This document shows, piece by piece, positions 4,339 to 28,702 of a stretch of 30,035 bases of DNA. The notes beneath the pieces were generated by a model. It saw nothing but the letters and a program-made list of their open reading frames with translations. It did not search any database and had not been told where the DNA came from. Numbering within the stretch: the stretch's first letter is position 1; each line of letters begins with the position of its first letter. A program made the translations under genes and the position numbers. This stretch comes from a virus, in the IMG/VR virus record IMGVR_UViG_3300031857_000967, positions 1-30,035 of that record, one strand, 5' to 3'.

Positions 4339-5323
4339 AAAGCACGACACAAAACTAACGGACGAAAGAACCGCATTTAAACCATTCGCATATCCTTGGG
4401 CATATAATGCATGGTTGCAACATGAACAAGCTCATTGGCTTCATTCAGAAGTTCCAATGATCGAAGATGTAAAAGATTGGAAAAACAAATTAACAACAGA
4501 ACAGAAACAATTTCTCACACACATTTTTAGATTCTTCACACAAGGCGACATTGATGTGGCAGGTGGTTATGTAAAGAATTATCTTCCTTATTTTCCTCAA
4601 CCGGAAGTAAGAATGATGTTACTTGGTTTTGCAGCTCGTGAAGCATTACACATTGCAGCATACTCACACTTGATTGAAACATTAGGATTGCCTGATACAA
4701 TGTACAATCAATTTTTAGAATATCAGGCAATGAGAGATAAACATGATTACGTACTTAATCTTAGCTCACAGAATGGCGATGCTGCTTCTACTGCTACTCA
4801 CATTGCAGTATTCTCTGCTTTCACCGAAGGGATGCAATTATTCAGTTCCTTTATCATGTTACTTAACTTCCCACGCAACGGTACGATGAAGGGTATGGGA
4901 CAAATCGTTACTTGGTCTATTGTTGATGAAACAATGCACGCCGAGAATATGATTAAATTGTTCCGTACATATGTGGAAGAAAACAAAGAAATTTGGAATG
5001 ATGATTTAAAATCGAGAATATATACTATTGCAGAAAAAATGGTGGAACTAGAAGATAAATTTATTGACCTAGCTTTCGAGATGGGTCCAATGGAGAACCT
5101 AGATGCAGAAGATGTTAAGCGCTATATTCGCTATATTGCTGACCGTAGGCTTATTTCTCTTGGTCTTAAAGGGATTTTCAAGGTAAAGAAAAATCCATTG
5201 CCATGGGTTGAAGAAATGATTAATGCTCCTATTCACGGAAACTTTTTCGAAAATCGTGTTACTGATTACGCAAAAGGTGCCTTGTCGGGACAATGGGAAG
5301 AAGTTTGGGGTAAAGCAGCTTAA
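4331..5323 (+). CDS. nrdB: Ribonucleoside-diphosphate reductase, small (radical) subunit
   Basis: This is the 330-aa class I radical-generating subunit. The di-iron ligands line up with E. coli NrdB by spacing: Asp73, Glu104, His107 (REALH), Glu166 (FTEGM), Glu200 and His203 (DETMH). The radical tyrosine is retained as Tyr111, four residues after His107, so it is a conventional tyrosyl-radical type. It overlaps the thioredoxin gene by 8 nt. Together with NrdA and thioredoxin it forms a complete NDP-reducing system from the phage. No intein or intron is seen, although these are common in phage nrd genes. Confidence 0.95.
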   Translation: MIKKHDTKLTDERTAFKPFAYPWAYNAWLQHEQAHWLHSEVPMIEDVKDWKNKLTTEQKQFLTHIFRFFTQGDIDVAGGYVKNYLPYFPQPEVRMMLLGFAAREALHIAAYSHLIETLGLPDTMYNQFLEYQAMRDKHDYVLNLSSQNGDAASTATHIAVFSAFTEGMQLFSSFIMLLNFPRNGTMKGMGQIVTWSIVDETMHAENMIKLFRTYVEENKEIWNDDLKSRIYTIAEKMVELEDKFIDLAFEMGPMENLDAEDVKRYIRYIADRRLISLGLKGIFKVKKNPLPWVEEMINAPIHGNFFENRVTDYAKGALSGQWEEVWGKAA

Positions 5324-5337
5324 AAGGAGAAAAAGTG

Positions 5338-6024
5338 ATGAAATGGAAAAATGATTTAATAAAAGATATTAGATATCTTACACCTTGGGATGATAGTGAT
5401 GGAGATCCAAGAATAGAATTTAGGGGTTGGGCTGAGGTAACTGAAGCGAATAGAATGGTCTTAAGAGATAGATTTTTGAGAGTTTCTGAAAATTGTTCCG
5501 CTATACTTGAAATCGGAGTCAATAGAAATGGAGAAAATTCATTTACACAAGTGTTGTTGAAAAATAAGAAAAAAGAAACTATCTATATTGGAATAGATAT
5601 AGATGATAGAGAATATCTAAACAATGAAGAAGAAAATATTCATGTTATAAGAGGTGATAGTTCCAACTATGAAGAAAATATGAAAATAATAAATCAAATT
5701 TTTGAAAAATGTGGAGCAACTAGAAAAGAATTTGACTTTATTTTCATCGACGGGTGGCACAGCGTTAATCAATGTTTAAAAGATTGGGAATACACAAACA
5801 TTTTAGGAAAAAATGGAATTGTTGGACTTCATGATACAGCATATCATCCTGGTCCAAAAGTATTCATGAGAAATTTAAATAAAGATGAATGGGCTGTTGA
5901 AGCAAACGTGATTGAAACTTCTAACGATTGGGGTATTGGTTTTGCATGGAAAAAAGATACCAATAATTGGAATCCAGTTCCCGAAGGATATGAATGGAAA
6001 GTAGATCCTCCAAATATGTATTAA
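5338..6024 (+). CDS. SAM-dependent methyltransferase-like protein (Methyltransf_24 type)
   Basis: A class I Rossmann methyltransferase is suggested by AILEIGVNRNGENSFT (residues 55-70, motif I with the Gly-containing SAM loop), IYIGIDIDD (acidic residue after strand 2), and DFIFIDGWHSVNQCLKDW followed by GIVGLHDTAYHPG near residue 160. The DGxH plus HDT pattern is usual for Methyltransf_24 and related sugar or small-molecule methyltransferases rather than DNA methylases. The ATG at 5338 is favoured over GTG 5335 because AAGGAG at 5324-5329 then has normal spacing. It follows nrdB closely and is the last gene before a promoter-containing gap. The substrate is unknown. Confidence 0.65.
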   Translation: MKWKNDLIKDIRYLTPWDDSDGDPRIEFRGWAEVTEANRMVLRDRFLRVSENCSAILEIGVNRNGENSFTQVLLKNKKKETIYIGIDIDDREYLNNEEENIHVIRGDSSNYEENMKIINQIFEKCGATRKEFDFIFIDGWHSVNQCLKDWEYTNILGKNGIVGLHDTAYHPGPKVFMRNLNKDEWAVEANVIETSNDWGIGFAWKKDTNNWNPVPEGYEWKVDPPNMY

Positions 6025-6031
6025 TTGATTT

Positions 6032-6060
6032 ATGACAATCCGATGACGGTTTTGTTACAA
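6032..6060 (-). promoter_or_regulatory. Pho-box-like direct repeats, inverted relative to pstS
   Basis: On the plus strand ATGACAA (6032-6038), ATGACGG (6043-6049) and a weaker GTTACAA (6054-6060) recur every 11 bp. Read on the minus strand the first two give CCGTCAT-CGGA-TTGTCAT, matching 12 of 14 defined bases of the PhoB box CTGTCAT-N4-CTGTCAT. The orientation is opposite to the classic E. coli arrangement, and one half-site coincides with the -35 hexamer, so part of the match may simply be the promoter. Position directly upstream of pstS makes PhoB control plausible but unproven. Confidence 0.45.
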
Positions 6061-6061
6061 T
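6032..6061 (+). promoter_or_regulatory. Sigma70-like promoter driving pstS-porin
   Basis: ATGACA (6032-6037) and TACAAT (6056-6061) are separated by 18 bp, each matching five of six consensus bases. Transcription would begin near 6068, leaving a leader of about 65 nt before the pstS ATG at 6133. The rest of the 108-bp gap (6025-6132) holds no gene and no riboswitch that I recognise. The element suggests transcription by host RNA polymerase independent of the upstream nrd operon. Confidence 0.6.
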
Positions 6062-6132
6062 CCCGTTTAAGGATCATGATTTCATAGATAAGTGTGATAT
6101 TGTGCAAAGGCACAATTCTTATAGGAGAAATC

Positions 6133-7155
6133 ATGAGAAAGTTACTTTTATCTTTATTGTTATTTACAGGAGTCGCATCCGCAGCAGAATTAACTGGCGC
6201 TGGTGCGACTTTTCCATTTCCAATCTATGCTAAGTGGGCAGAAGCATATAAAGCATCCACTGGCATTGGTCTGAATTATCAATCAATCGGTTCTGGTGGT
6301 GGTATCAAACAAATCAAAGCAAAAACAGTTGACTTTGGTGCAAGTGATATGCCATTGAAGCCTGAAGAATTAGACAAAGAAGGTCTAGTGCAATTTCCAG
6401 CAGTAATTGGCGGTGTAGTACCAGTATTCAATCTTGACGGTGTAGCAGCAGGTCAATTAAAATTAACACCAGAAGTTATTGCAAACATTCATCTTGGTAA
6501 AATCACAAAGTGGAACGATAAAGCAATTGTTGATTTGAATCCTGGCGTCAATCTACCAGCATTAGCAATCACAGTTGTTCATCGTGCAGATGGTTCAGGC
6601 ACTACATTTATTTGGACAAACTTTTTAGGTAAAGCAAACGCTGATTTTGCAAAAACTGTTGGCGAAGGCACAGCAGTAAAATGGCCAGTTGGTGTAGGTG
6701 GTAAAGGTAATGAAGGTGTTGCTGTTCAAGTACAAAGAATCAAAGGTGCATTTGGCTATGTAGAATATGCATATGCAAAAAGAAATAAAATTGCACACGC
6801 ACAATTAAAAAATCGTGATGGTGTTTTTGTACAACCAAGTGACGATTCATTCAAAGCCGCAGCAGCAAACGCAGATTGGGCTAATGCACCAGGAATGTAT
6901 TTGTTGCTCACATGGCAAACAGGTAAAGAAGCATGGCCAGCAACAGGCGCAAGTTTCATTCTCATGCACAAACAACAAGCAGATAGTTTGACAGGTCGTG
7001 CAGTTTTGAAATTCTTTGATTGGAGTTGGAAGAATGGTGCCAAGATGAGTGAAGAACTAGAATATGTTCATTTACCACAATCAGTTATTAAATTAAATCA
7101 GGACAATTGGAAAAAAGACTTAAAAGGTCCTGACAACAACCCAATTTGGAAATAA
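6133..7155 (+). CDS. pstS: Periplasmic phosphate-binding protein PstS
   Basis: This 340-aa PstS is very like the E. coli protein throughout. It starts with a Sec signal peptide (MRKLLLSLLLFTGVASAA, cleavage near ASA/AE). The phosphate-binding loops follow: LTGAGATFPFP, SIGSGGG, FGASD and HRADGSGTT. It binds inorganic phosphate in the periplasm and delivers it to PstCAB, none of which is encoded here, so the host transporter must be used. The ATG at 6133 is chosen over an in-frame GTG at 6094 because AGGAG (6123-6127) precedes it and it begins the signal peptide. The porin gene follows after 9 nt. All 13 Glu codons are GAA, unlike genes near 28 kb. Confidence 0.96.
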   Translation: MRKLLLSLLLFTGVASAAELTGAGATFPFPIYAKWAEAYKASTGIGLNYQSIGSGGGIKQIKAKTVDFGASDMPLKPEELDKEGLVQFPAVIGGVVPVFNLDGVAAGQLKLTPEVIANIHLGKITKWNDKAIVDLNPGVNLPALAITVVHRADGSGTTFIWTNFLGKANADFAKTVGEGTAVKWPVGVGGKGNEGVAVQVQRIKGAFGYVEYAYAKRNKIAHAQLKNRDGVFVQPSDDSFKAAAANADWANAPGMYLLLTWQTGKEAWPATGASFILMHKQQADSLTGRAVLKFFDWSWKNGAKMSEELEYVHLPQSVIKLNQDNWKKDLKGPDNNPIWK

Positions 7156-7164
7156 GGATAAATT

Positions 7165-8571
7165 ATGAAACTATTTAAAAAATTATCTATCGTAGTTGCA
7201 CTTGCAGCAGTAATTCCTGCATATGCTGATGAGTATAAAGATACATTGAATATTCTAAGAGAGAAGAATATAATCACTCAAAAAGAATATGAATCAAAAC
7301 TCAATGCATATGAAGAAAAAGAAGAAAACAAAAAGTTTGCAGAACAAAGAATCGACAAAGATGTTAGTGATTCGGTCAAATACAGACAAGCAAGAGCAAA
7401 CGATGGTTCAGTCACAGAAAATGGAATCGGACTCAAAAGCAAAGATGGAAACAATACGGCACAGTTTACAGGTCGAATTCATATGGACTATCGCCAATAC
7501 ACACCAGATTATGGTGTCGGCCAAACCACGGATTCGTATCAAAACTTAGCCGAAGTTCGCCGTGCAAGATTTGGTGTTCGTGGACAATTTGCAAAAGACT
7601 TCAAATATCAATTGTTAGCAAACTTTGGTGCAAGTGATGGCTTTAGTTCTACATCATCAACAGCAGATGAGATGTGGGTAAACTATGCAGCAAATCCAGA
7701 AATGCAATTTCAATTTGGCTTATTCAAGATGCCATTTAGTCTTGAACAAATGACAAGTTCAAACAATCTAGATTTTATGGAACGTAGTTTGATTGGTCAG
7801 AATGATACTGAATTTATTCCTGCAAAAGAAACTGGTTTCATGTTACATGGTGTGCCAAAACCTGGCCTTACATATGCTATAGCAGCAAGTAGAGGCAAAT
7901 CCAATAAGAGCGCAGAGTTCGATGGACTTGATTATATTGGTCGTGTAACAACTAATATTGCTGAACTAACAGGCAGCAAAGCATACACTGCACACTTGGG
8001 TGCAGCATACAGCACAGGTGAAATTAAAAGTGGCGTTGCACCAGCCAGTGGTAGAACAGAATCTCGTATGCAGTCTGGTTGGTTTACAGGTTCCGCATTG
8101 AGTGGTGCTACTACAAGAACACGCCAAGGATTAGAAGCAGCGTTTGCATATAACGGTTTCAAAGTTCAAGGCGAACAGTTCAATTTTAAATATGATGCTG
8201 CAACAGGTAGTGACCAAGAAATCAAAGGGTACTATGTACAAGCAGTTTATAATTTAACTGGCGAATCACATGCATACAAAGATGGTGCGTTTGGTTGGAT
8301 TAAACCAAATAATCCAATCGACAAAGGTGGTCGTGGTGCGTGGCAGGTTGGTGTACGTATGAGTGAGTTTGATGCAAGTGATGTATCCGTTGCAACAGGC
8401 AAGTCAAATCGTGCTACTGCTATGACATACGGTCTAACTTGGTTTTGCACTGACAATCTACGTTTCATGCTCAACTACGTAGATACAAAGTTTGATGCAT
8501 TAGTTGGTAGTTCTGGTAGTCGTGTAAATGGTGAAAAAGCAATTATGTTTAGAAGTCAATTAAGTTTCTAA
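7165..8571 (+). CDS. Phosphate-selective porin (OprP/OprO family), outer membrane
   Basis: A 468-aa outer-membrane beta-barrel precursor. It has a signal peptide (MKLFKKLSIVVALAAVIPAYA), a short charged helical stretch (about residues 24-65), then alternating aromatic/polar strands with family hallmarks: RRARFGVRG, the GLFKMPFSLEQMTSSN segment, and MERSLIG. The final residue is Phe (RSQLSF), the usual signal for BAM-mediated insertion. OprP-type porins are trimeric channels selective for phosphate or polyphosphate. AAGGA overlapping the pstS stop serves as ribosome site, and an intrinsic terminator lies 17 nt downstream, so pstS and the porin form a two-gene operon. Anion selectivity cannot be confirmed from sequence alone. 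An outer-membrane porin is unusual cargo for a phage. Confidence 0.9.
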   Translation: MKLFKKLSIVVALAAVIPAYADEYKDTLNILREKNIITQKEYESKLNAYEEKEENKKFAEQRIDKDVSDSVKYRQARANDGSVTENGIGLKSKDGNNTAQFTGRIHMDYRQYTPDYGVGQTTDSYQNLAEVRRARFGVRGQFAKDFKYQLLANFGASDGFSSTSSTADEMWVNYAANPEMQFQFGLFKMPFSLEQMTSSNNLDFMERSLIGQNDTEFIPAKETGFMLHGVPKPGLTYAIAASRGKSNKSAEFDGLDYIGRVTTNIAELTGSKAYTAHLGAAYSTGEIKSGVAPASGRTESRMQSGWFTGSALSGATTRTRQGLEAAFAYNGFKVQGEQFNFKYDAATGSDQEIKGYYVQAVYNLTGESHAYKDGAFGWIKPNNPIDKGGRGAWQVGVRMSEFDASDVSVATGKSNRATAMTYGLTWFCTDNLRFMLNYVDTKFDALVGSSGSRVNGEKAIMFRSQLSF

Positions 8572-8588
8572 AATTTTTTTGTTATATT

Positions 8589-8614
8589 AAAAGCCTCGTA
8601 AGAGGCTTTTTTTT
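8589..8614 (+). terminator. Rho-independent terminator after the porin
   Basis: A perfect 9-bp stem, AAAAGCCTC (8589-8597) with GAGGCTTTT (8602-8610), is closed by a GTAA tetraloop of the GNRA class and followed by further Ts to 8614. It is the clearest terminator in the window and closes the pstS-porin unit before the Fe-S carrier gene. Confidence 0.93.
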
Positions 8615-8643
8615 CGTCTAAATAAAGATCGAAGGAGAAATCT

Positions 8644-8964
8644 ATGATCACAATGACTGAACTCGCATCTCGCAAAACTTTAAACTCTTTAAACAAAAGA
8701 GGAAAAGGATTAGGTATTAAGGTTGGTGTTAGAACCACAGGTTGCAGTGGTTTGGCCTATACCTTAGAATATGTTGATAGTGTATCGGATACAGATACTA
8801 TATACGAATCTAACGGTGTTAAAATTTTTGTTGACCCAAAACATATTCCTTATCTGAACGGAATGGAAATAGATTGGAAAAGAAATGGACTCAATGAAGG
8901 TTTTGATTTTATAAATTCTTTAGAAAAGAATCGATGTGGTTGTGGTGAAAGTTTTAATATTTAA
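8644..8964 (+). CDS. A-type iron-sulfur cluster carrier (IscA/ErpA/HesB family)
   Basis: The 106-aa product has the three invariant cysteines of A-type carriers: Cys34 in TTGCSGLAY and Cys98/Cys100 in the C-terminal CGCGESF. Length and spacing are those of IscA/ErpA. Such proteins hand Fe-S clusters to apo-enzymes. No Fe-S target is encoded in this window, so it may serve a host or distant phage enzyme. AGGAG at 8633-8637 precedes ATG 8644; a second in-frame ATG at 8653 is less well placed. It follows the terminator, so it needs its own promoter; TCTAAATA at 8617-8624 resembles a T4 late element but lies very close to the ribosome site. Confidence 0.92.
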   Translation: MITMTELASRKTLNSLNKRGKGLGIKVGVRTTGCSGLAYTLEYVDSVSDTDTIYESNGVKIFVDPKHIPYLNGMEIDWKRNGLNEGFDFINSLEKNRCGCGESFNI

Positions 8965-8973
8965 GGAGAAAGA

Positions 8974-9423
8974 ATGAAATTAACAAAAATACTTTTAATT
9001 GGTCTATTATCTTTCGCTGGTATAGGAAATGTTTATGCTGACAAAACAGCAAAAGGTGTAACGTATGATGCACAAATTGTACGGGTAAATGATGGTGATA
9101 CTGTAGTGATTGCAGCACCCTTTTTACCTTTGCCATTAAAACCTGAATTAGCAGTTCGTATCTATGGTGTAGATACGCCAGAAAAAGGCCATAGAGCTCA
9201 ATGTCCAAGTGAAGATCAACGTGGTCAAGCAGCAACTGTGTTTACTAAAAATCTAGTTGCAAAGTCCATTAAACGACAAGTCACACTCTATGGTTGGGAT
9301 AAATTTGGTGGTCGTGTCTTGGGTGATATGATTCTAGATGGTCAAAGTCTCCGTAGTATGTTGATTCAAAACGGTTTCGCTCGGGAATATTTTGGTGAAG
9401 CCAAACAATCTTGGTGTCAATAA
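8974..9423 (+). CDS. Secreted staphylococcal-nuclease-like nuclease
   Basis: A 149-aa protein with a Sec signal peptide (residues 1-22, cleavage near VYA/DK) and an SNase (thermonuclease) domain. Residues equivalent to the catalytic set are present: Asp42 (NDGDT), Arg62 and Asp67 with Glu70 (VRIYGVDTPE), and Arg114 (FGGRVLG). The family cuts DNA and RNA in a Ca-dependent way. Export means it acts in the periplasm or outside the cell, not on the cytoplasmic chromosome. A good ribosome site (AAGGAG) follows the Fe-S carrier stop. Possible roles are nucleotide/phosphate scavenging or destruction of incoming DNA; neither is shown by the sequence. Confidence 0.9.
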   Translation: MKLTKILLIGLLSFAGIGNVYADKTAKGVTYDAQIVRVNDGDTVVIAAPFLPLPLKPELAVRIYGVDTPEKGHRAQCPSEDQRGQAATVFTKNLVAKSIKRQVTLYGWDKFGGRVLGDMILDGQSLRSMLIQNGFAREYFGEAKQSWCQ

Positions 9424-13430: not shown

Positions 13431-16400
13431 TTAACCAAATGTAATCTCAGAACCAAATACAGACCATGCAGATCCTATTCTTAATAAATTAAATGAATAA
13501 AATTCAGTTTTGTTTGCTGTTGGTGTGGGTGCTGCACCGCCAGCCCAATTAATTGTTTGTGCTGCGCCATCTATTTGTACGGCATTTGGTATATATCCTG
13601 TTGCACCTTGTACTATAACAATCGTAACTGTAATAGATCGACTTGTTGTGGTTGGTACATTTGTAAAATTCGCAGTAAAGTTTGCTGCAGCACTTGTGTG
13701 ATAAAAAACAGAACCATCAGTTAAGTTATGAGTTACTGTTCCTGTAGCACCAGTTAATGTACTTAAAACTTCTGTTACTTCTTGTAAAGTGGTGAATCCT
13801 GTTACTGTTAAATCACCAGAAATTGTACCACCAGCTGTAGCTAGTCGAGTGTTTGCAGAAGCAAAAGCACCATTAGCATACAAACTCGCTGATGTTACAG
13901 TGTTAGCGGTAGTGAATGATGAATTAGCATATGATCCAGCTGTTACAGCTTTACTATCTGCGGTATTTGCTACACCAAATGCCGAATTAGCATATGATCC
14001 AGATGTTACTGCTTTACTGTCGGCAGTATTAGCTGAACCAAATGCCGAGTTAGCATAGTTACCAGCTGTTACAGCCTTACCATCAGCGGTAGATGCATTT
14101 GTTGTAGCAGTATTAGCTTGACCATAAGCTGAATTAGCATATGATCCAGCACTTGTGGCCTTTTGATCAGCAGTAGTAGCATTGGTAGTTGCTGTATTAG
14201 CTTGAGTATAAGCTGAATTAGCATAGTTACCAGCTGTTACTGCTTTACTGTCAGCAGTAGCAGCATCGGTAGTTGCTGTATTTGCTTGCGTGTAAGCTGA
14301 ATTAGCATATGATCCAGATGTTACTGCTTTACTGTCTGACGTATTAGCAACACTAAATGCAGAGTTAGCATAGTTACCAGCATCAACAGCTTTAGAATCA
14401 GCTGTAGATGCATTTGTTGTAGCAGTATTCGCAGCAGCAAAAGCACTATTAGCATAGTTACCAGCTGTTACTGCTTTACCATCAGCTGTAGCAGCATTAG
14501 TAGTTGCGGTATTAGCTTGAGTATAAGCTCCATTAGCATAAGATCCTGCTGTTACAGCTTTACCATCAGCAGTTGCAGCATTAGTCGTAGCAGTATTAGC
14601 TTGACCATAAGCACTATTAGCATAGTTACCAGCTGTTACAGCTTTACCATCAGCTGTAGATGCATTTGTTGTAGCAGTATTAGCTTGAGTATAGGATGAG
14701 TTAGCGTAATCACCTGCCGTTAAAGCTTTAGAGTCAGCAGTAGTAGCATTGGTAGTTGCTGTATTAGCTTGACCATAAGCTGAATTAGCATAGTTACCTG
14801 CTGTTACTGCTTTACTATCTGAGGTATTAGCTAAAGCAAAGGCAGCATTAGCATATGATCCAGCTGTTACAGCTTTACCATCAGCTGTAGCAGCATTAGT
14901 TGTGGCTGTGTTTGCTTGACTATAAGATGAATTGGCATAACTAGATGCAGCATTAGCAGTGTCTCTAGCATATTGGTCTGAACTACTGGCGCCTGTATTA
15001 GCGGCTGCAAATGCCGCATTGGCGTATGTTCCAGCCGTTACAGCTTTTTGGTCTGCTGTATTAGCTGCAGCAAAAGCGCCATTTGCATATGAACTAGAAC
15101 TTACAGCTGTTTGACTAGTAGTGTTAGCTGTATCATATAAAACTTTAATTACATTTGCGGAAGTTAAATTTGCAAATGTCAGATTACCTGAACCATCGGT
15201 TCTAATATAATCATCATTTGAACCACCTGTAATATGAAGGTTTGCAATTGGTCCCAATAAAACACTCTTTGCGATACTTGAATCTACATTAGAACGAATG
15301 TTAATCGTATTGCTTGAACCAATGATACGCATTTGTTCATTTTCTTCATTCATGCCACCAGCAGTAAATATGACATCATTTTCTAAAAGTGTACCAATTA
15401 CAAGGCCACCACCGCCCGTGACTGTATTGCCAGACACATACAAGTAACCATCATTTGGACCAACTAACGTAAATTCAGGATCGGCATGCAGACTACTAGC
15501 AATACCCATGTCAATATAAGTATCATTTTCAGTACCGTTATCGGCCGTAGCAACATAATCAGATGATGCGTTATTTCCAGGATTAATGTTTTGAATGTTT
15601 ATTTGAGAGTAATTATCCTCATTTGTTGATGCTTGAAATACTGTATGTGGCTGATAGTCATATCCAACAGGAATACCAGCATATAATGCGTTATGCCCGT
15701 TCGCTTCACCAAAAAATTGACCACTATTACCAGTGACAGTTACAGAAGTAACATTTCCTGTAAAACTAACATTTCCTAAGACACTAAGATCATAGAGGAT
15801 AGTAACGTTACCAGAGATTGTGCCGCCCGATGAACTAAATTTGGTGTTGGCATCAGCAAATGCAGCGTTTGCGTAAATTGCTGTTGTGTTTGCTGCACCA
15901 AAAGCTGAGTTAGCATAACTACCAGCACTCACTGCTTTACTGTCAGCAGTATTCGCTGTATTAAAAGAAGAATTGGCATAACTTGATGCCGCATTAGCAG
16001 TATCTCTAGCTAAAGTATCTGGCACTCCTGTATTTGCGGCCGCAAATGCTGCATTAGCATAAAGACCAGAACTATTAGCAGTATAAAATCCTGAATTGGC
16101 ATAACTAGATGCAGCGTTTGCAGTATCTCTAGCCCAAGAATCGGTAATACCACTATTGGCCACAGCAAAAGCAGCATTAGCATAGTTACCAGCAGAAATA
16201 GAATTGACATCTGCTGTGTTGGCAATACCAAACGCTGCATTAGCATAACTGCCAGCTGTTACTGCTTTACCATCAGCTGTAGCAGCATTTGTAGTTGCAG
16301 TGTTTGCTTGAGTATAAGCAGAGTTAGCATATTGTCCTGCATCAACAGCTTTACCATCAGCTGTAGCAGCATTTGTAGTTGCTGTATTAGCCACACTAAA

Positions 16401-17666
16401 GGACGAATTAGCATATGATCCTGCACTTACAGCTTTACTGTCGGCAGTTGCTGCATTTGTAGTTGCTGTATTTGCTTGTGTGTAAGCTGAGTTAGCATAA
16501 CTACCAGCACTTACCGCTTTACTGTCAGATGTATTTGCTTGAGTATATGCTGAGTTAGCATAGTTACCAGATGTTACTGCTTTACTATCTGCGGTATTTG
16601 CTTGAGTGTATGCTGAGTTAGCATAACCACCAACATCAATAATTTTAGAATCTACTGTGTTAGCAGCACCATAAGCACTGTTAGCATAAACTCCGGATGA
16701 TACTGCTTTGCTGTCGGCAGTCGCAGCATTTGTAGTTGCAGTGTTCGCAACACCAAATGCCGAGTTGGCATAGTTACCAGCTGTTACTGCTTTAGAATCA
16801 ACAGTGTTGGCCTCACTGAAGGCAGCGTTGGCATAAATGCCAGCTGTTACAGCCTTACCATCAGCGGTAGATGCATTAGTGATTGCGGTATTAGATTGAC
16901 CATAGGCTGAGTTAGCGTATTCTCCAGCACTTGTGGCCTTTTGATCAGCTGTAGTTGAATTTGTTGTTGCTGTATTAGCTTGAGTATATGCTGAATTGGC
17001 ATAAGATGAACCACTATTAGCGGCACCAAATGCTGAATTAGAATATGATGCAGTACTTACAGCTTTATCATCAGCTGTAGCAGCATTGGTTACGGCCGTA
17101 TTGGCTTGACCAAAGGCAGTATTAGCATATTCTCCAGCACTTACTGCTTTACTATCGGCTGTTGCAGCATTAATAGTTGCGGTGTTTGCTTGACTGTATG
17201 CTGTATTCGCATAGTTACCAGCTGTTACTGCTTTACCATCAGCTGTAGATGCATTTGTTGTGGCGGTATTAGCTTGACTATACGCAGAGTTAGCATATGA
17301 TCCCGCATTTACAGCTTTAGTGTCTGCCACTCCAGCATTTGTAGTTGCATTGTTGGCCTGACTGTATGCTGAGTTTGCATAACTACCTGCTATAACAGAA
17401 GTATTGGCTTTATTGAAGGCCGAATTCGCTTCGTTAAATGCACTATTAGCATAAAAAGCGGCACTATTCGCTGTATCTCTAGCGTAACTATCTATGCTAC
17501 CCGATGATGCTGTATTCGCCGCAGAAAATGCCTGATTGGCGTAAGATGCTGCGGAGTTAGCCGCAGCAAAAGCAGAAGATATGTTTGCTGCTACTTCTGT
17601 ACTTAAATCGGACTGTTGAATTGATCCTGGTTCAATTAATCCGCCTGTTAGTTGTGTTAATGGCAT
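13431..17666 (-). CDS. Giant heptad-repeat tail fibre, 1411 aa
   Basis: The largest gene in the window. After about 30 N-terminal residues it consists of two long arrays of Ala/Asn/Thr-rich heptads (such as YANSAYT, QANTATT, KAVTAGS). Most units are 28 residues (four heptads), and a shorter 21-residue form lacks the TATTNAA-like heptad. Array 1 lies near 17590-15845 and array 2 near 15130-13850. Between them is a non-repetitive beta-rich domain beginning GGTISGNVTI, with a second GGTISGDLTVTG opening the C-terminal domain (13840-13431), which ends SVFGSEITFG. The 7-residue period with Ala at fixed positions suggests a long trimeric coiled-coil shaft with a mid-shaft knob and a C-terminal head. 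Plus-strand open frames here are by-products of the repeats. Confidence 0.88.
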   Translation of the reverse strand: MPLTQLTGGLIEPGSIQQSDLSTEVAANISSAFAAANSAASYANQAFSAANTASSGSIDSYARDTANSAAFYANSAFNEANSAFNKANTSVIAGSYANSAYSQANNATTNAGVADTKAVNAGSYANSAYSQANTATTNASTADGKAVTAGNYANTAYSQANTATINAATADSKAVSAGEYANTAFGQANTAVTNAATADDKAVSTASYSNSAFGAANSGSSYANSAYTQANTATTNSTTADQKATSAGEYANSAYGQSNTAITNASTADGKAVTAGIYANAAFSEANTVDSKAVTAGNYANSAFGVANTATTNAATADSKAVSSGVYANSAYGAANTVDSKIIDVGGYANSAYTQANTADSKAVTSGNYANSAYTQANTSDSKAVSAGSYANSAYTQANTATTNAATADSKAVSAGSYANSSFSVANTATTNAATADGKAVDAGQYANSAYTQANTATTNAATADGKAVTAGSYANAAFGIANTADVNSISAGNYANAAFAVANSGITDSWARDTANAASSYANSGFYTANSSGLYANAAFAAANTGVPDTLARDTANAASSYANSSFNTANTADSKAVSAGSYANSAFGAANTTAIYANAAFADANTKFSSSGGTISGNVTILYDLSVLGNVSFTGNVTSVTVTGNSGQFFGEANGHNALYAGIPVGYDYQPHTVFQASTNEDNYSQINIQNINPGNNASSDYVATADNGTENDTYIDMGIASSLHADPEFTLVGPNDGYLYVSGNTVTGGGGLVIGTLLENDVIFTAGGMNEENEQMRIIGSSNTINIRSNVDSSIAKSVLLGPIANLHITGGSNDDYIRTDGSGNLTFANLTSANVIKVLYDTANTTSQTAVSSSSYANGAFAAANTADQKAVTAGTYANAAFAAANTGASSSDQYARDTANAASSYANSSYSQANTATTNAATADGKAVTAGSYANAAFALANTSDSKAVTAGNYANSAYGQANTATTNATTADSKALTAGDYANSSYTQANTATTNASTADGKAVTAGNYANSAYGQANTATTNAATADGKAVTAGSYANGAYTQANTATTNAATADGKAVTAGNYANSAFAAANTATTNASTADSKAVDAGNYANSAFSVANTSDSKAVTSGSYANSAYTQANTATTDAATADSKAVTAGNYANSAYTQANTATTNATTADQKATSAGSYANSAYGQANTATTNASTADGKAVTAGNYANSAFGSANTADSKAVTSGSYANSAFGVANTADSKAVTAGSYANSSFTTANTVTSASLYANGAFASANTRLATAGGTISGDLTVTGFTTLQEVTEVLSTLTGATGTVTHNLTDGSVFYHTSAAANFTANFTNVPTTTSRSITVTIVIVQGATGYIPNAVQIDGAAQTINWAGGAAPTPTANKTEFYSFNLLRIGSAWSVFGSEITFG
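13850..15130 (-). repeat. Coding repeat array 2 (63/84-bp units)
   Basis: Degenerate tandem units of 84 bp (sometimes 63 bp) encode the heptads of the distal shaft. The DNA copies share long near-identical blocks, such as the recurrent plus-strand string TTAGCATAGTTACCAGCTGT, but differ at many synonymous sites. Boundaries are approximate. The units run head to tail within one reading frame and have no spacers. Confidence 0.85.
15845..17590 (-). repeat. Coding repeat array 1 (63/84-bp units)
   Basis: The proximal shaft array, the same unit family as the distal array and more interrupted. Several units carry a variant DxxARDTANAASSYANS block that recurs near 17470, 16120, 16000 and, in the distal array, 14950. 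Boundaries are approximate. The homology between arrays offers substrate for slippage or recombination that would change shaft length in multiples of seven residues. Confidence 0.82.
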
Positions 17667-28018: not shown

Positions 28019-28151
28019 TTATATAATATTAGTGTTATTACTTTCAGGTTGTGCCTCGCCGTATCAATTGAGAGTGATATCTGTATCTGATAAACCGACC
28101 CATCATTGTATAGAGAAAAACCGTATAATTTGCGAGTATAGAACAAAATGA
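28011..28151 (+). CDS. Small outer-membrane lipoprotein, 46 aa
   Basis: A hydrophobic signal (NYIILVLLL) ends in the lipobox L11-S12-G13-C14, with Ala at +2, which predicts outer-membrane sorting. The mature peptide is only about 33 residues and has two more Cys (HHCIEK, IICEY). Size and lipid anchor would fit an outer-membrane spanin subunit of the Rz1 type, but it is not Pro-rich and no inner-membrane spanin is obvious. It overlaps the Pal gene start (ATGA). Confidence 0.62.
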   Translation: MTNYIILVLLLSGCASPYQLRVISVSDKPTHHCIEKNRIICEYRTK

Positions 28152-28702
28152 AAATTCAAATAATTCCCTTAGTGTTATGTTTAACGGCCTGTTCAACGGT
28201 GTCATTGAAGGATGTATCTAAAGGTAGTAATGAGAATAATGATGCCCCTCCCATAGTGGAGAATCGAACGAAAAAGAATAATTCGGGTGTGACGGTGGAG
28301 GTAGACACTGATGCTCGAATAGAGGTGAGAAAAATTGATATACCGAAACGGAATGACCCTAATGGTATTTTTCGTGATTATTTAATTTATTTTGATTTGG
28401 ATGAGTATACGGTACAGGACAAATTTTTACCTTTACTGAAGCAGCATGCCGAGTTTTTGGTGAAGAATCCGGATGAGTTTGTTTTTATAGAGGGGCATAC
28501 TGATGAACGGGGTGGTGCAGAGTACAATTTAGCATTAGGTCAGAGAAGGGCTAATGCTGTGAAGGTTGTATTGATGAATTATGGAGTTTCTGAGAAACAA
28601 GCTGAGGCATTTTCTTATGGGTCGGAAAAACCCCGTATTATAGGTTCGAATGAGGAAGCTTGGAGTGAGAATCGCCGAGTGGAATTATACTATAGGAATT
28701 GA
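28148..28702 (+). CDS. pal: Pal-like peptidoglycan-associated lipoprotein (OmpA-like domain)
   Basis: A 184-aa protein. The signal ends in lipobox L12-T13-A14-C15 with Ser at +2, predicting an outer-membrane lipoprotein. After a polar linker (about 16-75) comes an OmpA-like domain very close to E. coli Pal: IYFDLDEYTV, EGHTDERGGAEYN, LGQRRANAVKV, SYGSEKP and ENRRVEL. The Asp and Arg that hold diaminopimelate in OmpA-like domains are visible in HTDERG and GQRRAN. Cellular Pal ties the outer membrane to peptidoglycan and binds TolB. Glu codons are 13 GAG to 4 GAA, unlike PstS (0 to 13), hinting at separate origin. Confidence 0.9.
   Translation: MKIQIIPLVLCLTACSTVSLKDVSKGSNENNDAPPIVENRTKKNNSGVTVEVDTDARIEVRKIDIPKRNDPNGIFRDYLIYFDLDEYTVQDKFLPLLKQHAEFLVKNPDEFVFIEGHTDERGGAEYNLALGQRRANAVKVVLMNYGVSEKQAEAFSYGSEKPRIIGSNEEAWSENRRVELYYRN

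Follow-up and report, generated by a model that had tools for sequence, protein, structure and literature searches.

Introduction

Among described systems, the closest phage counterpart of the genes analyzed here is the host-derived pstS gene of T4-like cyanophages such as P-SSM2 and S-SM1, which is sometimes accompanied by phoA and stands under the control of the host PhoBR system, as cited for P-SSM2 in a section of PMC10976474. The present study concerns a cassette of two genes, one for the periplasmic phosphate-binding protein PstS and one for an outer-membrane porin of the OprP/OprO family. It is found on a stretch of viral DNA of 30,035 nucleotides (nt; positions 1-30,035 of the IMG/VR virus record IMGVR_UViG_3300031857_000967), to which we refer at its full length as the window. 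An earlier model-made annotation of this DNA, in the following called the original prediction, had viewed the cassette as a self-contained phosphate-uptake unit equipped with its own promoter and terminator. Overall, our analysis supports this reading; the observation as such is partly confirmed, its promoter part having failed.

The cassette has in common with the cyanophage genes that a host-derived pstS resides on T4-like phages. However, while 90 deposited phage records matched our PstS, 79 of which bear the name of Synechococcus, Prochlorococcus or a cyanophage, the identity was only 33-45% among the matches listed, and cyanophage pstS genes have other neighbors (DUF680, phoA). Above all, a tblastn search with the porin found no match in 50,697 deposited phage records, nor did the porin match any PHROG family at E 0.001. 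PstS matches from a Campylobacter phage (an unverified record) and from Salmonella (bacterial) were dropped as phage relatives; one of them, L166, is only a distant row in the tree.

A second point of reference is provided by OprP and OprO of Pseudomonas aeruginosa, with which the phage porin shares its Pfam family and a predicted 16-strand barrel; it differs from OprP in several pore residues and in being encoded by a phage beside pstS. A third is the Pho island of Burkholderiales (ppk/pstS, ppx/porin, phoX, a PlcP-like gene and an MGDG_synth-type glycosyltransferase gene), which holds the nearest relatives of both phage proteins and has PHO boxes before most of its pstS genes. There, however, pstS and the porin gene are 10.8, 11.7 and 12.0 kb apart (contigs G002:C40, G114:C26 and G194:C140), whereas 9 nt is the rule in the phages.

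In the literature covered, from which most subscription papers and bioRxiv were missing, we found no description of a phage pstS-porin pair. Many kinds of phosphorus gene are named in a survey of phages, whose main text was searched for the terms "porin" and "plcP" and contains neither (PMC10987575); the passages of PMC9958192 that list a viral phoE of unknown role are silent on whether it is a porin. A further candidate precedent was set aside, as the porins in the relevant part of that paper are different ones (PMC3686209).

Results and Discussion

A Phage-Borne pstS-Porin Cassette

We consider it probable (about 0.75) that the two genes form a phage-borne, host-derived phosphate-uptake cassette that would act during infection of a phosphate-starved bacterium, probably a member of the Burkholderiales, by means of an OprP-like porin, PstS and the PstCAB transporter of the host. 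In this scheme, the phage porin would admit phosphate, or small phosphate-bearing anions, across the outer membrane, phage PstS would catch phosphate in the periplasm, and it would then hand its ligand over to host PstCAB. Judged from its kinship to bacterial phosphate-starvation genes and from the starvation-switch-like sequences before it, the cassette probably raises phosphate uptake during infection.

The identity of the binding protein is clear. PstS scores above two curated equivalog cut-offs (NF008171, 418.2 bits with a cut-off of 339; TIGR00975, 373.3 bits with a cut-off of 205) and has its structural matches in PstS proteins of the E. coli type (1ixh, E 1.3e-109). The GSGGG and ASDM motifs and residues R151, S155, G156 and T157 are invariant across 25 aligned phage PstS proteins, and they thereby fit the phosphate-ligand pattern (T, gSgxg, S/D, RxxxSGT) given in a portion of PMC10987575. 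From these features, the protein is predicted to bind phosphate and to dock onto host PstCA. PstA was not found in any of 20 large phage contigs, with a positive control in 4/4 host genomes (including the query's own), so that the proposed reliance on the host for PstCAB fits. PhoB was also absent from the same 20 contigs, in a search run without a positive control.

Three approaches agree in placing the porin in the OprP/OprO (Porin_O_P) family. It matches the Pfam model with 171.8 bits (gathering cut-off 20.9), and a profile built from 28 phage porins had no PDB matches at E 0.01 besides OprP, OprO and a mutant of the latter (E 4.5e-24 to 6.8e-24). In a fold search with the AlphaFold2 model, in which we count 16 strands longer than three residues, OprP came first (2o4v, E 8.5e-22) and OprO second, while other porins began at 2e-12. 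Hence, the family assignment of the original prediction holds, and the porin does not derive from an unrelated, non-anion-selective group; the anion selectivity that had been implied is only suggested, and two selectivity positions differ from those of the Pseudomonas proteins.

The linkage of the two genes is tight. Our scans of IMG/VR relied on exact matches to short peptide patterns; of 109, 423 and 81 relatives, the best 80 were kept each time, and the scans overlap and favor close relatives. Starting from the porin (109 relatives), pstS lies directly upstream in 80/80 kept loci, with a contig end cutting pstS in seven. In the reverse scan with the PstS alignment (best 80 of 423), the porin gene follows in 77 of the 79 loci with sufficient room; one of the 80 was dropped for too little room, and 343 lower-scoring PstS relatives lie outside this count. 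One porin-less locus is L247. In L211 (3825-5763), pstS likewise stands without a porin gene, the place of which is taken by a protein of 151 aa whose start is signal-like; the surroundings are those of the window, with nrdB before and the nuclease gene and segE after. The pstS-porin pair is thus common in uncultured phages, as far as we could find without ever having been described, in agreement with the statement of the original prediction that no known phage system covers both steps. In the L033 locus, PstS is 97% identical to that of the window and the porin 87%, and the PstS and porin trees differ inside the phages; the two halves of the cassette therefore recombine.

Proposed Regulation by the Host Phosphate-Starvation System

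The original prediction had seen a sigma70-like promoter upstream of pstS (ATGACA at 6032 and TACAAT at 6056; 6032-6061). This did not withstand scrutiny, as positions 5300-9000 contain 14 such sites compared with 12.5 +/- 3.3 in shuffled sequences. Both hexamers sit within an array of 7-nt half-sites with an 11-bp period (Table 1), which is better read as PHO-box-like. On its two strands, the window contains three consecutive RTNAC elements at this period in a single place (start 6032), and 5000 shuffles of the 150-nt region preceding pstS gave none. PHO boxes are direct repeats of 11 nt according to a part of PMC4415409, and an excerpt of PMC3465305 gives the PhoB consensus as CTGTCAT-A(AT)A(TA)-CTGT(CA)A(CT).

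We scored both half-sites against YTGTMAY, with a maximum of 14. The start of pstS is present in 73 of 80 loci, which yielded 38 distinct 150-nt upstream regions, 36 after another filter. A PHO-like score of at least 13 is reached by 25/36 distinct phage pstS upstream regions, as opposed to 6/487 upstream regions of other phage genes and 0/36 of the porin genes. When the regions were sorted into 14 promoter groups, which are rough and not fully independent (up to three members of each tested), 11 groups stood out from shuffled sequences at p <= 0.02. Thirteen phage upstream regions, from 8 of the 14 groups, have a sense-strand box followed after exactly 10 nt by [TC]TAAATA; the sole further sense match is a second, overlapping one in L064. 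The boxes of host pstS genes, significant in 12/13 upstream regions (p <= 0.02), have the same 10-nt spacing when in sense orientation, followed by TATAGT, TACAGT, TAAAGT or TAAATT. In L002-L081 and the window, the [TC]TAAATA motif also has a peak before other genes, at a distance of 25-39 nt upstream, in addition to its place behind sense PHO-like boxes, and is perhaps a late promoter.

On these grounds, the cassette is probably under the control of host PhoB, and its expression would then be strongest in starved cells. Several observations weigh against this view. A box is missing from promoter groups L028 and L079, L021 reaches only p 0.03, and the host upstream region L136 also lacks a box. 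Two groups, that of the window and the large one of L033, have their best PHO-like match on the opposite strand, the array of the window being reversed, and no -10 element matching it was found in either group; the activating geometry is therefore not seen there. Moreover, predicted Pho boxes in phage genomes have been judged unreliable in PMC10976474.

The repeats might accordingly not be PhoB sites at all, with the cassette expressed independently of phosphate from the putative late promoter or by upstream transcription. The peak of [TC]TAAATA before other phage genes, the reversed array of the window, the three of 14 groups devoid of a convincing box and the published caution all speak for this explanation. 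We nevertheless regard it as rather unlikely, given the enrichment before pstS relative to other genes, the host-like 10-nt geometry in eight groups, and the fact that the full score is attained by just three of the six high-scoring control sites, each of which precedes a PlcP-like phosphoesterase gene.

Selectivity of the Porin

We take R34, R59, R60, D94, S124, S125, K121 and R220/R226 to be the binding-site and arginine-ladder residues of OprP, and positions 62 and 114 separate OprP (Y62/Y114) from OprO (F62/D114). With OprP numbering transferred through the PDB profile alignment of the phage porins, R34, R59, R60, D94, S124 and S125 are retained in 81/81 phage porins, as they are in OprP/OprO. 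The resulting basic constriction fits an anion pore, and anion selectivity is what these residues would predict. Not all of the evidence points to phosphate as the preferred anion. In 81/81 phage porins, Y62 is replaced by Arg and Y114 by Lys, a pair found in neither OprP nor OprO; K121 is replaced by Gln; the R220/R226 stretch of OprP could not be aligned with the phage proteins; and the structural model is mediocre (mean pLDDT 63, with loop 193-218 below 50). The six closest host porins likewise have R/K/Q at positions 62/114/121, and R plus K at 62 and 114 is present in all 12 host porins compared.

These replacements, together with the unaligned stretch, would suit an anion pore of wider range, open to pyrophosphate, polyphosphate, nucleotides or organic acids, in which case PstS would profit from only a part of the influx. 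The constant partnership with pstS, the host neighbors ppx and phoX, and the six retained OprP residues argue for phosphate instead, and we consider the wider pore unlikely.

A PlcP-Like Third Gene in Related Phages

In 18 of the 81 phage loci, a gene for a calcineurin-like, PlcP-like phosphoesterase is found near the pair, 17 times just 3' of the porin gene and once (L060) upstream of pstS; 7/20 large phage contigs have this gene, each in a single copy. The cassette is therefore often larger than the unit in the window, in which no phosphoesterase match was found. Three of the 487 control upstream regions score 14/14, and every one of them precedes a PlcP-like gene (Table 1). The phage protein is 48-53% identical to the product of a host-island gene that lies near phoX and adjoins the MGDG_synth-type glycosyltransferase gene. 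This donor arrangement recalls the PlcP-Agt lipid renovation, in which PlcP takes off phosphate head groups at low phosphate (described in part of PMC9804370). We thus call the third gene PlcP-like, and a phospholipase C role is predicted from the donor context; LpxH was rejected as its identity (35.7 bits, cut-off 190). The glycosyltransferase gene is present in 0/81 phage loci, and so are the other island genes sought (ppk, sixA-like, GNAT, phoX, ppx, phoR, phoB, phoU, pstB, pstA and three more).

The phosphoesterase matches five deposited phage records, including Pelagibacter phage Mosig EXVC030M (MT647606.1; L174:2900-4735), which has a PstS-like gene beside a 47% relative of the PlcP-like gene. 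In Mosig, however, the two genes are divergently oriented (back to back), the PstS-like protein is only 26% identical in the best segment, and no porin is annotated in the 8.7 kb read; the best PHO-like score in the intergenic region is only 10/14. This pair looks like a case of convergence. Its PlcP-like gene is annotated as UDP-2,3-diacylglucosamine hydrolase and is perhaps misnamed.

A broader interpretation is that these phages own a small phosphate regulon wired to PhoB, assembled from scattered genes of the host Pho island. It would combine the pore and the binder in one unit and, in some members, add PlcP-like stripping of phosphate from phospholipids, with PHO-type promoters tying this envelope phosphate route to the starvation sensor of the host. 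We advance this idea tentatively, at somewhat less than even odds.

A different use of the cassette would lie in the envelope or in signaling: the porin might alter the cell surface, e.g., by masking a receptor, or extra PstS might shift PstSCAB-PhoU-PhoR signaling. Extra phage outer-membrane proteins can alter adsorption, the Pst complex participates in Pho signaling, and the window phage also encodes an OmpA-family protein. Still, a binder with retained ligand motifs, a PlcP-like third gene and PHO-like promoters all indicate phosphorus supply, and such a function appears very unlikely to us.

Bacterial Relatives and Origin of the Cassette

An alignment search of a genome collection with the porin gave 50 loci. 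The closest host porins, 47-54% identical, are from Burkholderiaceae, Oxalobacteraceae, Burkholderiales and Polynucleobacter metagenome-assembled genomes, followed by those of Methylophilaceae at 32-40%; the nearest PstS relatives are in Burkholderiales as well (72-77%). L082-L087 and L121 come from seven genomes; PstS has a match in six of them, five times near full length (74-76% identity) and once as a fragment at a contig end. In the family of G006 (392 genomes), 381 have a PstS match and 21 a porin match at E 0.001. In the hosts inspected, the porin gene and ppx point away from each other, with phoX nearby (L083-L085, L087), and pstS is divergent from ppk (L132-L134, L157-L159, L161); L161 has pstS on one strand and pstA, pstB, phoU and phoB on the other.

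In phylogenetic trees, the phage PstS proteins form one clade (96/100; 98% of bootstrap trees), as do the phage porins (100/100), which adjoin the porins of L082-L087 (97/84). In the PstS tree, the hosts are not one clade and the outgroup branches are long, and in the porin tree long branches meet; the single phage clades may partly reflect the bias of the scans toward close relatives. The host of these phages is probably a member of the Burkholderiales, as judged from the donor group only. One point against our reading is the G+C content of the cassette, 0.39 as opposed to 0.47-0.62 in the host loci; either the transfer took place some time ago, or the true donor is missing from the genomes sampled.

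The window and the related loci are metagenome contigs, and a terminase profile matches 7/20 large phage contigs and also 11/14 cellular control genomes; that the pair stems from contaminating bacteria, or is carried without being used, is nonetheless hardly credible, since phage genes flank a pair whose members are apart in hosts, each protein forms a separate phage clade, and the open reading frames remain open across 73-100% identity, and we reject a bacterial contaminant on account of the flanking genes and the phage-specific clades. One terminase-profile match, on the contig of L028 (G394:C1:54634-56679), contains two in-frame TAG codons; recoding, an intron or a split gene are possible causes.

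Layout of the Locus

The features of the cassette are compiled in Table 1. As originally described, the two genes are separated by only 9 nt and are followed by a perfect hairpin. Its 9-bp stem encloses a 4-nt loop (-12.7 kcal/mol, z -3.8), and 0/200 shuffles fold equally well. The terminator claim rests on this fold and not on the site count, because the pattern scan alone gave three sites compared with 2.0 +/- 1.6 in shuffles. For pstS, the ATG at 6133 is favored over an alternative in-frame GTG at 6094 because of the Shine-Dalgarno-like sequence and the signal peptide.

Table 1. Features of the pstS-porin cassette in the window and of PlcP-like genes in related loci.
Feature	Location	Strand	Remarks
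PHO-box-like array	6030-6069		Four 7-nt half-sites, 11-bp period: 6030-6036, 6041-6047, 6052-6058, 6063-6069; the minus strand gives the best canonical match
Possible 5'-leader hairpin	6099-6116	+	ATTGTGC-AAAG-GCACAAT; spotted by eye, not folded
Shine-Dalgarno-like sequence 5' of pstS	6124-6129	+	AGGAGA
pstS	6133-7155	+	Periplasmic phosphate-binding protein, 340 aa, signal peptide
Porin_O_P (OprP/OprO family) porin gene	7165-8571	+	468 aa, signal peptide, C-terminal Phe
Intrinsic terminator	8589-8614	+	Hairpin 8589-8610 plus T tail
PlcP-like gene beside the pair	L045:7854-8663; L060:5173-5970; L063:6685-7494		Own upstream region with a 14/14 PHO-like box

The pair is preceded by thyX, nrdA, a thioredoxin gene, nrdB and a methyltransferase-like gene, and followed by genes for an Fe-S-biosynthesis protein and an exported nuclease, segE, tail-fibre-like genes and phoH. 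With relatives among bacterial genes, a terminator of its own and a phage genome as its context, it has the traits of a phage auxiliary gene unit, or moron, as originally proposed. Immediately 3' of the cassette (8644-9423), the Fe-S-biosynthesis-family protein is followed by the exported protein, which is staphylococcal-nuclease-like. A tail-fibre-like protein of 1411 aa, built from Ala/Asn/Ser-rich repeats, is encoded on the minus strand (13431-17666), and the OmpA-family protein (28148-28702), with its lipoprotein-like start, is a further envelope protein on the same phage.

Physiological Implications

The phosphate help known from phages consists mainly of pstS in marine cyanophages. Here, other phages would cover both envelope steps of phosphate capture, in a manner that may be wired to the starvation switch of the host. 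The PlcP-like gene in some members of this group, along with the PstS-like/PlcP-like pair of a SAR11 phage, suggests that phages may also mine the membranes of their hosts for phosphate. If our reading is true, the linked pstS-porin pair is a clear metagenome marker for such phages, and the permeability of the outer membrane would be a step worth carrying for phages under phosphorus limitation.

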